From: Bacteroidota bacterium
GTDB taxonomy: Bacteria; Bacteroidota; Bacteroidia; Chitinophagales; Chitinophagaceae
Length of the DNA stretch: 64,000 bases
Direction: 5' to 3'
Assembly: GCA_016868475.1 (NCBI GenBank)
Contig: VGGU01000001.1
Span: 57,405 to 121,404 of the forward strand
In this document: in pieces, positions 12,096-29,858 of the stretch
How positions within the stretch are numbered: the stretch's first letter is position 1
Layout: each line of letters starts with the position of its first letter
Made by a program: the position numbers and the translations under genes
The notes under the pieces: model-generated
The model's database searches: none
What the model saw: the letters and a program-made list of their open reading frames with translations, nothing else
What the model was told of the DNA's origin: nothing

Positions 12096-12971
12096 CTAAA
12101 GTATGTTAAGCACCTGTTCTTTTGCCTTTTCCAGTTCGTCCTTCATTTCTACCACTAATCGCTGGATGCCGGCATCATAGGCCTTAGAACCCGTTGTATT
12201 GATTTCGCGACCTATTTCTTGTAGAATAAAGGAGAGCTTTTTCCCTTTTCCCTCTTCGGCTGATTCGACCTGCTCTCGAAAATAACTGCAATGATTGCTA
12301 AGACGAACCAACTCTTCAGTGATATCCATCTTTTCGATATAATAAATCAGCTCCTGTTCCATTCTGTTCCGGTCAATGGCTTCCTCCTTGAGATGTTCTT
12401 TCATGGACTTATTCATTGAAGCACGAAGCTTTTCACGACGCACCGGATCTAATTCGGCTATTGCTATTTGTCGCTTTTCTATTTGAGCGATTCGCTCCAG
12501 CAGATCTGTTTCCAATGCCTTTCCTTCCTCTGTACGATGCTTATTTATGGCAGTAATAGCTTCTTGTAAACCTTGCTTGAATAGTTCCCACTCTGTTTCT
12601 GCCAGCCCTTCGCTTCCGGAAGTAATCACATCCGGTAATTTTAATAAAGAAGGCAACAATTGGCTGGTGTCCAAGCCAAGTTCAACAGCTAATTGTGCTA
12701 ACGATTGGTAGTAGGAGCGAGCCATCTGCGTATTGATCGATACAGGAATAATGGGGCCTGCATCTTTTAAACTGACTTGACAATCAATGGTGCCCCGTCC
12801 CAGATTTTCTGCTAAGCATTTTCGAATTTCAAATTCAAATGGTTTGAGTAAGGCAGGCATTTTTAATTGTAGTTCAAATTGTTTGCCATTGAGAGATTTG
12901 AGATCAATGGCAAACAGCTTATCGCCTACTGAAATAGCGGCTCTGCCAAAGCCGGTCATGGATTTAAGCAT
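12096..12971 (-). CDS. yicC: YicC-family endoribonuclease
   Basis: MLKSMTGFGRA N-terminus and C-terminal 'LSFILQEIGREINTTGSKAYDAGIQRLVVEMKDELEKAKEQVLNI'. Confidence 0.94.
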   Translation of the reverse strand: MLKSMTGFGRAAISVGDKLFAIDLKSLNGKQFELQLKMPALLKPFEFEIRKCLAENLGRGTIDCQVSLKDAGPIIPVSINTQMARSYYQSLAQLAVELGLDTSQLLPSLLKLPDVITSGSEGLAETEWELFKQGLQEAITAINKHRTEEGKALETDLLERIAQIEKRQIAIAELDPVRREKLRASMNKSMKEHLKEEAIDRNRMEQELIYYIEKMDITEELVRLSNHCSYFREQVESAEEGKGKKLSFILQEIGREINTTGSKAYDAGIQRLVVEMKDELEKAKEQVLNIL

Positions 12972-13005
12972 AGAATTGCTTTATGTAAAGGTATCAGAAT
13001 TGGTA

Positions 13006-13035
13006 AATAAAAAATCCCTCCGTAATCGGAGGGAT
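13006..13035 (-). terminator. Minus-strand intrinsic terminator upstream of yicC (end of a candidate small RNA)
   Basis: Minus strand ATCCCTCCG-ATTA-CGGAGGGAT-TTTTTATTT; perfect 9-bp stem. Confidence 0.7.
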
Positions 13036-13192
13036 CTATATGGATGGGTTAGTAAGTACTGGGAAACGAATTTCCCTTCACAATATTAAGAACTTATTTG
13101 TTTATTAAAAAAATATTTTAGGATCCATTTTATCAACATTTTAAAAATTCATGTGGATAAGCGTAATTGAAAGACGGCATTGCAATCGCTAC

Positions 13193-13200
13193 TACCTTTG
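13193..13200 (+). promoter_or_regulatory. -7 element TACCTTTG for lpxD
   Basis: Exact TAnnTTTG, 15 nt before ATG 13216. Confidence 0.5.
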
Positions 13201-13215
13201 TAAAAATCAAATCGC

Positions 13216-14166
13216 ATGCAGTTTGAAAACCCCATTCCACTTACCACAATTGCACAATTAATTGGTGCTACACTCATAGGAGATAATGACTTTGTAGCAA
13301 AGGGTATCAATGAAATTCATTGCGTACAAATGGGCGATTTAGTTTTTGTGGATCATCCCAAATATTATAACACCTGTATTCAGTCTGCAGCGAGTTTTAT
13401 CATCATAAACCAAAAAGTGGAAGTGCCTGCAGGAAAAGCGCTGTTGGTTGTAGAGAACCCTTTTGAGGCATATCTGCGTATTGTAGAAGCCTATCGCCCT
13501 TTTAATCCATCACTGCAACCTATCAGCACAACAGCTGTAATTGGAAAGGACACACAAATACTGCCGGGAGTATATATTGGTAATCATGTAAAGATTGGAG
13601 CTAATTGTATTATCCATCCTAATGTTACCATTCTGGATCATTGTGTTATTGGCAACCATGTAGTGATTCAAGCGGGCTCGGTAATTGGGAGCGATGCATT
13701 TTATTACAATAGAAAAACAAACCGTCCGGTACAGTATAAAAAAATGAATAGCTGTGGACGGGTGTTGATACATGATGAGGTGGAAATAGGAGCCAGCTGC
13801 ACCATTGATCGAGGGGTAACATCCGATACCATCATCGGAGCCGGAACAAAACTGGACAATCAGGTTCATATTGGGCATGATACTGTTATTGGACGCAATT
13901 GTTTATTGGCCGCACAGGTAGCAATAGCGGGGGCTGTTACCATTGAAGATGAAGTAACGCTTTGGGGTCAGGTAGGCGTAAACAAAACCCTTCGAATTGA
14001 AAAAGGGGCCACCATACTAGCGCAAAGCGGAGTGCCAGGTAACCTAATTGGAAATAAAATTTACTTTGGTACGCCTGCCGAAACTGCTATGAGAAAAAAA
14101 AGAGAGCTGGTTTGGGTAAAACGAATTCCTAAGATCTGGGAAAAAATCAAAAACATTCAAGCGTAG
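13216..14166 (+). CDS. lpxD: UDP-3-O-acylglucosamine N-acyltransferase (LpxD-like)
   Basis: Left-handed beta-helix hexapeptide repeats after an LpxD-type N-terminal domain; 'GSDAFYYNRKTNRPVQYKKMNSCGRVLIHDEVEIGASCTIDRG'. Confidence 0.85.
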   Translation: MQFENPIPLTTIAQLIGATLIGDNDFVAKGINEIHCVQMGDLVFVDHPKYYNTCIQSAASFIIINQKVEVPAGKALLVVENPFEAYLRIVEAYRPFNPSLQPISTTAVIGKDTQILPGVYIGNHVKIGANCIIHPNVTILDHCVIGNHVVIQAGSVIGSDAFYYNRKTNRPVQYKKMNSCGRVLIHDEVEIGASCTIDRGVTSDTIIGAGTKLDNQVHIGHDTVIGRNCLLAAQVAIAGAVTIEDEVTLWGQVGVNKTLRIEKGATILAQSGVPGNLIGNKIYFGTPAETAMRKKRELVWVKRIPKIWEKIKNIQA

Positions 14167-27404: not shown

Positions 27405-28154
27405 TTAACGACTACTATAACAAACACTGGCTATCCATAACCTTCGATCACCCTCTTGCAACAGAGCTTGACCACAGGCTTCCAGTGTAGCGCCAGTAGT
27501 AATTACATCGTCAACCAGCAATATGTTTTTATATTTCAATTGGGGGGCAGGCAATGCTTCAAATACTTCCTGCATATTTTTCCATCGCTCAGTGCGGTCT
27601 TTTTTGGTTTGGGTACTTCGCTCGGCATTTCTCCGAAGCAAGTTTGTACAAACGGGCAGTCCGGTTACGGCAGCAATACCTTGGCAAATAAGGGTAGCCT
27701 GATTAAACCCTCTACTTCTTTCTTTGGAAGGATGAAGGGGAACCGGAACCAAAACATCCACTTGAAAGCGACCATTGTTTTTAAGTGCTGCACCCAATAA
27801 ACTTCCCAACTGAATTCCTAAGGCTTGATTGCCTCTGTATTTTAATTCATGTAGCAATGCTTGCACTATGGAGTTCTGCGAATAAAAAAAGAGACTGGTG
27901 GCTGCCTGTACCGGCGTTCGTCCCCAAAAAATTTTTTCTACGGGATTATCAGCTTGTTCTGTAAAATGAGTCTGAGGGAGTTGGTGTAAACAACGTAAAC
28001 AGATTTCAGTTTGTTGACTCAATCGATCTGCGCCACACCCTGCACAATAATGCGGATAAAAAAGACAGGCAGCCGCCTCTGCCCACTTAGTTAATAAACC
28101 CACGGCTATATTATCTTTCGAATAAGTAACGATAGAGTTCCTCGACCCGGGCAA
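27405..28154 (-). CDS. ComF-family phosphoribosyltransferase
   Basis: CAGCGADRLSQQTEICLRCL zinc module; PRPP loop 'ILLVDDVITTGATLEACGQAL'. Overlaps radA, so the start is uncertain. Confidence 0.9.
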   Translation of the reverse strand: MPGSRNSIVTYSKDNIAVGLLTKWAEAAACLFYPHYCAGCGADRLSQQTEICLRCLHQLPQTHFTEQADNPVEKIFWGRTPVQAATSLFFYSQNSIVQALLHELKYRGNQALGIQLGSLLGAALKNNGRFQVDVLVPVPLHPSKERSRGFNQATLICQGIAAVTGLPVCTNLLRRNAERSTQTKKDRTERWKNMQEVFEALPAPQLKYKNILLVDDVITTGATLEACGQALLQEGDRRLWIASVCYSSR

Positions 28155-29502
28155 GCGCCACTACTTCAATACCGCTTTGTTTGGAAGCTGGTCGGTTCTT
28201 TTTCTCTTTGTAATTATAACGGGAAACAATAATTTTTTCAAAGCCCAATTTGGCAGCTTCGGCAATTCGCTGTTCAATTCGGTTAACTGCTCTTATTTCG
28301 CCACTCAATCCTACCTCACCGGCAAAACAAATGGAGGAGGGGAGAGGGATATCCTCGTAAGAGGAAAGTAACGCACACAAAACGGCTAGATCAATGGAGG
28401 GATCTTCCACCTTGAGTCCTCCGGCAATATTCAGGAACACATCTTTATTGCCAAATTGAAAGCCGCCTCTTTTTTCCAGCACAGCTAATAATAATTGTAA
28501 ACGTCGCAGATCAAACCCACTCACTGTTCGCTGCGGTGTACCGTAAACGGACTGAGTAACCAATGCTTGCACCTCGATCAATAATGGCCGCATTCCTTCA
28601 AGGGTTGCAGCAATTGCAATTCCACTGAGTGCTTCTTCTTTTTGTGTAAGTAATATTTCACTGGGGTTAAGCACACCGCGCATACCGGTTTCGTTCATCT
28701 CATAAATGCCTAACTCGGCAGCACTCCCAAAACGATTCTTGAGTGTACGCAGTATCCGGTAAGCATAGTGTCTGTCCCCTTCAAATTGCAGGACCGTGTC
28801 TACCATATGCTCCAATACTTTGGGACCTGCAATCTGTCCTTCTTTAGTAATATGGCCAATCAGAAATACGGGTGTGTTGGTTTCTTTAGCAAATCGTTGA
28901 AATTCTGCTGCACATTCTCTGATCTGAGATACCGATCCTGCTGATGCATCCAGGAAAGGAGTTTGTAGCGTTTGAATTGAATCAACAATGATCAATCCCG
29001 GTTTTAATTTTTTTATTTCCTGAAAAATTACACTGGTGTTGGTTTCTGTCAATAAATAAAAATCCGGATTTTGCAATTGTAAACGATCAGCTCTCATCTT
29101 TATCTGTTGCTCACTTTCTTCGCCACTGATATAAAGCACAGAAACATTTTTTAACCAAAGTCCTGTTTGTAAAAACAAGGTTGACTTTCCAATACCTGGT
29201 TCTCCGGCAACCAATATCAAACTTCCTTGCACAATTCCACCGCCGAGTACACGATTCAATTCTGCATCACCCGTTACCATTCGTCGCTCCTGATTACTTT
29301 TAACCTGATCAAGCGTGGTGATTTTTCCTTTTCTTTTTTCTTCTCCATATGCAGACCAATCCTGCTGATCCTTTGCATTGTCTTTGTGAACTATTTCTTC
29401 TACATAACTATTCCATATGCCACATCCGGGACATTGACCCAACCACTTTACGCTTTGATGACCGCAGTGTTGGCAGAAAAACATTTTTTTAGTTTTATTC
29501 AT
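28111..29502 (-). CDS. radA: DNA repair protein RadA/Sms
   Basis: CQHCGHQSVKWLGQCPGC zinc finger; Walker A GEPGIGKST; KNRFG motif. Confidence 0.96.
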   Translation of the reverse strand: MNKTKKMFFCQHCGHQSVKWLGQCPGCGIWNSYVEEIVHKDNAKDQQDWSAYGEEKRKGKITTLDQVKSNQERRMVTGDAELNRVLGGGIVQGSLILVAGEPGIGKSTLFLQTGLWLKNVSVLYISGEESEQQIKMRADRLQLQNPDFYLLTETNTSVIFQEIKKLKPGLIIVDSIQTLQTPFLDASAGSVSQIRECAAEFQRFAKETNTPVFLIGHITKEGQIAGPKVLEHMVDTVLQFEGDRHYAYRILRTLKNRFGSAAELGIYEMNETGMRGVLNPSEILLTQKEEALSGIAIAATLEGMRPLLIEVQALVTQSVYGTPQRTVSGFDLRRLQLLLAVLEKRGGFQFGNKDVFLNIAGGLKVEDPSIDLAVLCALLSSYEDIPLPSSICFAGEVGLSGEIRAVNRIEQRIAEAAKLGFEKIIVSRYNYKEKKNRPASKQSGIEVVALARVEELYRYLFER

Positions 29503-29506
29503 ACTT

Positions 29507-29545
29507 AAAAAAATGAAAAGGGCCAATCTTTCGACTGACCCTTTT
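29507..29545 (-). promoter_or_regulatory. Attenuator/terminator-like hairpin in radA leader
   Basis: Minus strand AAAAGGGTCAGTC-GAAA-GATTGGCCCTTTT-CATTTTTTT. 13-bp stem; its two non-Watson-Crick pairs are G-U only on the minus strand. Confidence 0.6.
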
Positions 29546-29858
29546 ACTTACTAACCCATTAAATTCTTCTGCTAAATTAGCAAGTGGGGGGTAATTTTTA
29601 AAAAAAAATTTAGGGATTGTGCATAACTTTTGAGTTCTTACACCCGGTTGACAGGGGGGATAAATGGGGGAAAGAAACATATCTAATATATTGATAATCA
29701 ATAATAAAAAATCAATTTATTTACAACCGATCTGGGGGTAACCCTCGCCTTAAAATAATTTTTACCCCTTTTTGAATGACAAAAAGGCGCATATAAATGA
29801 GGGTGAGCCAGTGGCGACAAATTTGTAGTAATATTGAGTACTAAAATATTCAATTTAC

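Follow-up and report, generated by a model that had tools for sequence, protein, structure and literature searches.

Does a perfect complementarity of 15 nucleotides (nt) between two distant intergenic regions of a bacterial chromosome mark an RNA pairing system, or is it a coincidence? The question is raised by a 64,000-nt stretch (hereafter the window) of a Bacteroidota bacterium of the family Chitinophagaceae (assembly GCA_016868475.1, contig VGGU01000001.1, positions 57,405 to 121,404). The 15-mer ATGGGTTAGTAAGTA lies on the plus strand at 13044-13058, between yicC and lpxD, and on the minus strand at 29545-29559, upstream of radA, so that two minus-strand transcripts would be complementary over 15 nt. 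A previous inspection of the letters of the window (the sequence-only reading) had noted the 15-mer and its reverse complement, which were found where it had placed them, and had proposed a small RNA that targets radA attenuation in trans. From comparative analysis, the sites are two different predicted small RNA genes, named here B (lpxD/yicC side) and A (radA side), and are restricted to one family. The two conserved genes very probably represent an undescribed RNA control circuit and not a chance match.

In the genome of the window (G000, 1.74 Mb) the 15-mer has two exact copies. With up to two mismatches it was no commoner than the reversed control, and the two-mismatch sites fell inside open frames or at their ends, or had no terminator behind them. 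A dispersed repeat family is ruled out by the two exact copies and the lack of an excess of near-copies, and the scattering over many unrelated intergenic sites that the sequence-only reading had named as a warning sign is not seen in this genome. The family was sampled with 299 genomes from 104 genera, using the 14-mer ATGGGTTAGTAAGT as the motif and the reversed motif as the control. The 14-mer was detected in 266 genomes (94 genera), mostly in exactly two copies, and the control was almost empty. In a class-wide sample of 396 genomes the 14-mer was present in all 13 members of the family; six of the 383 others had one copy, which is the control level. That the pair exceeds chance, as had been estimated earlier, was thus borne out. 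In a same-genus set of about 20 genomes, in which yicC and radA leaders were retrieved via the proteins rather than the motif, nearly all carried the motif at both places; the co-conservation of the 15-mers, on which the earlier proposal depended, is real. The genera among 80 loci were Sediminibacterium, Segetibacter, Terrimonas, Flavisolibacter, Puia, Ferruginibacter, Flavipsychrobacter, Taibaiella and other Chitinophagaceae. Models of both RNAs, applied with strict filters to 16 other families of the order, gave nothing convincing.

RNA B is a predicted small RNA (sRNA) gene of about 70 nt on the minus strand (13007..13077), the 5′ end being placed from the promoter position. Its -7 element TAATATTGTG is of the Bacteroidota type TAnnTTTG (13079..13088, invariant TAATATTG in the alignments). 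It is followed by a 5′ hairpin, GGGAAA-UUCG-UUUCCC, located at 13076-13061 by sequence and predicted fold in agreement with the earlier description, then by the exposed UACUUACUAACCCAUCCAUAUA and an intrinsic terminator with a U-tract (13012..13037). The exposed pairing region, UACUUACUAACCCAU, occupies 13044..13058, and its conservation extends into CCAUAUA (13037-13043). The terminator (AGATCCCTCCG-ATTA-CGGAGGGAT and a T-run, 13037-13012) is present as previously described and is the only terminator-like site in 12900-13300 (0.2 in shuffles). Across relatives the consensus reads TTTG-N19-TAATATTGTG, a short 5′ hairpin, GUACUUACUAACCCAUCCAUAUA and a terminator whose stem pairs vary on both sides between genera; the 5′ hairpin displays little covariation, since it displays little variation. 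Conserved promoter, exposed site and terminator support the stand-alone minus-strand sRNA that had been predicted. B adjoins lpxD and/or yicC in 26 of 34 genera, many loci having been viewed with only 600 bases on each side. By family assignment, lpxD (13216..14166, plus strand) is divergent from B, and a YicC-like endoribonuclease gene, yicC (12096..12971, minus strand), lies downstream of it. Because Escherichia coli YicC is linked to sRNA decay, this neighbourhood may be functional. A possible second B-type RNA (ACTTACTAACCC and a terminator, near a glycosidase-like gene) was observed in genus g89, where it is kept in two species (L439, L446).

RNA A, predicted to be about 60 nt long (29506..29570, minus strand, with an inferred 5′ end), is located directly upstream of radA (28111..29502, minus strand, family assignment). 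Its -7 element is TAATTTAG (29572..29579), in which TAnnTTAG is nearly invariant, and TTTG stands some 18-19 nt upstream in most relatives. The promoter precedes GAAUUUA-AUGGGUUAGUAAGUA and a terminator; AUGGGUUAGUAAGUA (29545..29559) is the exposed pairing region complementary to B, as judged by conservation and pairing analysis. The consensus across relatives is TTTG-N18/19-TAnnTTAG, GAATTTA, ATGGGTTAGTAAGT(A) and a terminator. The hairpin beside the 15-mer that had been reported earlier was confirmed, with 13 pairs (29516..29545), as the only terminator-like site of its region. Covariation in this stem is far above shuffles: over 11 pairs, 35 both-side changes were counted versus 11.8 in shuffles. 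The terminators that follow the site do not align. In 30 of 35 genera A precedes radA, whereas its other neighbour varies, again with many loci viewed with 600 bases per side. The strains that carry A include Terrimonas ferruginea DSM 30193, Segetibacter koreensis DSM 18137 and Sediminibacterium salmoneum NBRC 103935. The earlier description of the hairpin as a radA leader element holds for its position upstream of radA; in most relatives, however, it terminates a short RNA of its own and is more than a radA leader element. A start-stop mini-frame in A (AUG GGU UAG) was ruled out, as the AUG is lost in one genome (G198) and the codons are changed in genus g36. Another form of A-type RNA was noted in some genera (loci L459, L472, L136, L139, L134, L154). 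There the site is preceded directly by (G/A)CTTAC, which can fold back onto the GTAAGT at the end of the site and so hide the seed in a hairpin. An A-like arrangement was also observed on two viral contigs (132 kb, L482:2070-2088; 66 kb, L483:3127-3145), in which intergenic TTTA-ATGGGTTAGTAAGTA has a terminator-like hairpin directly behind it. Such a phage element might titrate B in the host, but it comes from a single phage lineage and may be due to chance; as for B-type phage copies, the three viral matches were without the B layout.

Both promoters fit the sigma-ABfr form, for which the consensus is TTTG at -33 and TAnnTTTG at -7 (PMC7366714). Neither RNA matched Rfam, including the BTnc families, above gathering score. 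The best sub-threshold matches, Phe_leader and BTnc231, reached E-values near 0.03, with scores well short of the gathering threshold, and a known RNA family was rejected on these grounds.

In the predicted transcripts both 15-mers are single-stranded. Opening the region would cost 0.25 kcal/mol in B and 1.75 kcal/mol in A, and the duplex of the two 15-mers is predicted at -21.2 kcal/mol. At sequence level B thus has the properties of a trans-encoded sRNA: its own promoter and intrinsic terminator, a gene separate from that of its partner, and an accessible seed whose complementarity to a distant transcript is conserved with covariation. In 81 genomes (34 genera) both RNAs were found; in 44 of them all 15 nt pair exactly, and most of the rest retain 12-15 pairs, counting G-U. 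The A:B pairing covaries between lineages, as the sequence-only reading had proposed to check. One genome (G198) has ATAGGTTAGTAAGTA in A and TACTTACTAACCTAT in B, a compensatory change from G-C to A-U, while two congeners keep the consensus. Two positions are compensated in G146 (A ATGGGTTAGTAAATG, B CATTTACTAACCCAT; G-C to A-U and A-U to G-C), and in G121 an A-U pair has become U-A at position 15. A lone C>U in B, giving G-U, occurs in four genera, and G>A in A was never seen without a change in B; the uncompensated changes lean toward those that an RNA duplex tolerates. Own partners form 656 of 690 Watson-Crick pairs, compared with 646.3 +/- 1.8 for reshuffled partners (reached in 1 of 20,000 shuffles), and 669 pairs counting G-U, compared with 661.4 +/- 1.3 (0 of 20,000); these statistics, and the co-change test restricted to a single genome for each genus (mean p 7.5e-5, maximum 0.01), rank the evidence and are not exact probabilities, since related species are not independent. 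A match of 15 nt somewhere in 64 kb is not rare in itself, but a chance resemblance between two unrelated intergenic 15-mers is ruled out for practical purposes by the co-conservation across the family together with the covariation.

In some genera the motif has further exact copies, and these pointed to the 3′ ends of mRNAs, namely those of recA, of a bacilliredoxin-like gene (PF06491) and of a LexA-like regulator with helix-turn-helix (HTH) and S24-peptidase domains. In each of these recurrent mRNAs the site is in sense orientation, shortly before the terminator. recA was surveyed in 27 genomes over the first 80 nt after the stop codon, allowing up to 3 mismatches to the site. The site was detected in the 3′ untranslated region (UTR) of recA in 19 of the 27 (0.23 for shuffled and 0 for antisense sequences). 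In genera g46 and g69 the recA match is shifted toward the CCAUAUA side of B, and this use of CCAUAUA may explain why the conservation of B reaches beyond 15 nt. In g36 a C>A change in B is matched by T in the recA site, where all 15 positions pair (14 Watson-Crick and one G-U). In genus g98 (L448, L454) a B site was seen in the 3′UTR of the LexA-like regulator, in keeping with a DNA-damage theme.

What the comparison of genomes shows directly is the two genes, their conserved and covarying complementarity, and the recA sites. From these we infer expression of the RNAs, their pairing in the cell, a sponge role for A and the direction in which regulation runs. We consider it probable that these elements form a family-wide RNA pairing circuit, in which B acts in trans and is bound and titrated by A and by mRNA 3′ ends. 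B, divergent from lpxD, would be the hub sRNA, whose unstructured middle of about 22 nt would pair with a site in other transcripts, a few nt 5′ of their intrinsic terminators. Its partners would be A, the recA mRNA 3′ end in most of the family, and bacilliredoxin-like or LexA-like mRNAs in some genera. A, which contains little besides the site and terminator in its 60 nt or so, would be a dedicated pairing RNA and probably a sponge: its main feature, after a short leader, is a site complementary to the seed of an sRNA, as expected of a non-coding sponge RNA. The 3′ ends of recA and of a few other mRNAs would either join the titration of B or be regulated there.

Several observations weigh against this circuit. 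In genera g65, g85, g93 and g109, mostly represented by near-complete genomes, neither RNA was convincingly found with the models used. The recA site is absent from the reduced genomes G000 (that of the window) and G003, and because of this A is the only clear partner in the genome of the window. Among mRNAs, none was found to carry a B site at the start codon. In g36 both RNAs have changed at one position, which leaves an A.A mismatch between A and B. The covariation figures are not free of phylogeny, and many of the pairs from outside the genus were picked via the exact 14-mer. As to g65, g85, g93 and g109, their pattern would correspond either to a joint loss of both RNAs or to divergence beyond the models.

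The same pairing could also work in the other direction, with A and the recA 3′UTR as ordinary targets of B whose stability or processing is changed near their terminators, and with A as a radA-linked target. With A ahead of radA in most genera and the site present in recA, there is a shared recombination theme that suggests targets, and the conserved CCAUAUA of B is also used against recA in g46 and g69. Yet A has a promoter and a terminator of its own and consists of hardly more than the site, and some lineages have extra A-type copies, as expected of sponges; we regard this direction as somewhat unlikely. It is improbable that the motif works at the level of DNA, as a 15-bp double-stranded site for a protein, the RNA complementarity being a by-product of the opposite orientation of one copy. 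A protein with changed specificity would also shift both copies jointly, and compensatory changes alone cannot discriminate here. The copies in A, recA and the other mRNAs, however, are all sense-oriented and shortly before a terminator, the one-sided changes are of the kind that G-U pairing would allow (C>U in B but no G>A in A), and both copies lie inside promoter-terminator units instead of upstream of promoters.

The radA attenuation of the sequence-only reading, with A as the radA leader and B binding setting the read-through into radA, would be possible only where A abuts radA. This is the case in the window, since in its lineage the end of A is only about 14 nt from the radA start codon, and the position of A upstream of radA in most genera is in keeping with it. 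Of the 30 genera in which radA follows A, however, 21 have a radA frame that opens more than 100 nt past the seed, which leaves space for radA to have a promoter of its own. The B-binding site abuts the base of the terminator stem without overlap, and therefore no obvious antitermination switch would result from pairing; the alternative, ligand-switched fold that defines a leader attenuator was not seen. The recurrence of the site at recA and other mRNA 3′ ends would also be left unexplained by radA control. Of the earlier proposal, the trans complementarity to a transcript just upstream of radA is retained, while attenuation as its main function is very improbable.

Both promoters of the proposed A/B circuit are accompanied by DnaA-box-like sites, that is, by TTATNCACA, the DnaA-box consensus, or near variants. 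Upstream of B there is an inverted pair, TTATCAACA at 13130-13138 (plus strand) and TTATCCACA at 13152-13160 (minus strand), and TTATGCACA (29618..29626, minus strand) lies upstream of the A promoter. In relatives an inverted pair (such as TTATCCACA...TGTGAATAA) is found at set distances from B, and at least one box is present in 29 of 34 genera (1.8 expected). For A, 20 of 35 genera have a box TTWTN[CA]ACA that begins some 66 nt ahead of the seed (0.14 expected). The background density of TTATNCACA in a relative was 0.07 per kb. recA promoters had no box at a fixed place. A replication origin at B was ruled out, as just one or two unclustered boxes occur per locus; GC skew, sampled in a complete relative (G157), also speaks against an origin, with neither A nor B at the skew minimum. 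The box-like sites suggest that DnaA may control both promoters. As a tentative extension, possible rather than probable, DnaA would control two sRNAs, one of them located ahead of radA, that pair with each other and with the recA mRNA 3′ end, coupling replication initiation to the capacity for recombination and repair throughout the family.

The A/B pair is nearly universal in its family, a group of soil and freshwater bacteria, and comes with a built-in test, in that evolution has itself supplied compensatory mutants. The pair suggests RNA control at the recA 3′ end and, if the DnaA sites are functional, to a possible RNA link between DnaA and recombination. To our knowledge, very little has been reported on base-pairing RNA regulation in Bacteroidota beyond Bacteroides, and we know of no sRNA chaperone in the Chitinophagaceae. 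Our literature search found no paper on the A/B pair, nor on an sRNA site in a recA 3′UTR. A base-pairing sRNA with a sponge is a known kind of system; the candidate novelties are the partner at the recA 3′ end, the placing of the sites next to terminators and the DnaA-box-like sites at the promoters.

Among described systems, the stand-alone intergenic sRNAs of Bacteroides, e.g., GibS, share with A and B the Bacteroidota -7 promoter and the intrinsic terminator (PMC7366714); unlike these, A and B match no Rfam family above threshold, BTnc families included. No obvious homologue of Hfq or ProQ is present in Bacteroides (PMC7366714). In sRNA regulation from mRNA 3′ ends (reviewed in PMC9438474), a functional pairing stretch likewise lies in the 3′UTR directly before the terminator, whereas here recA is the mRNA concerned and its 3′UTR site copies the one in a dedicated, separately encoded RNA. 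The CrfA sponge and the SisA-D sRNAs of Caulobacter crescentus are similar in being mutually pairing non-coding RNAs, one of which titrates the others (PMC12559287). That system is Hfq-associated and has been demonstrated experimentally, whereas A and B belong to Bacteroidota and are known from sequence. The likeness would be one of working mode, and A/B differs in its 15-nt seed and in having the site at the recA 3′ end as well.
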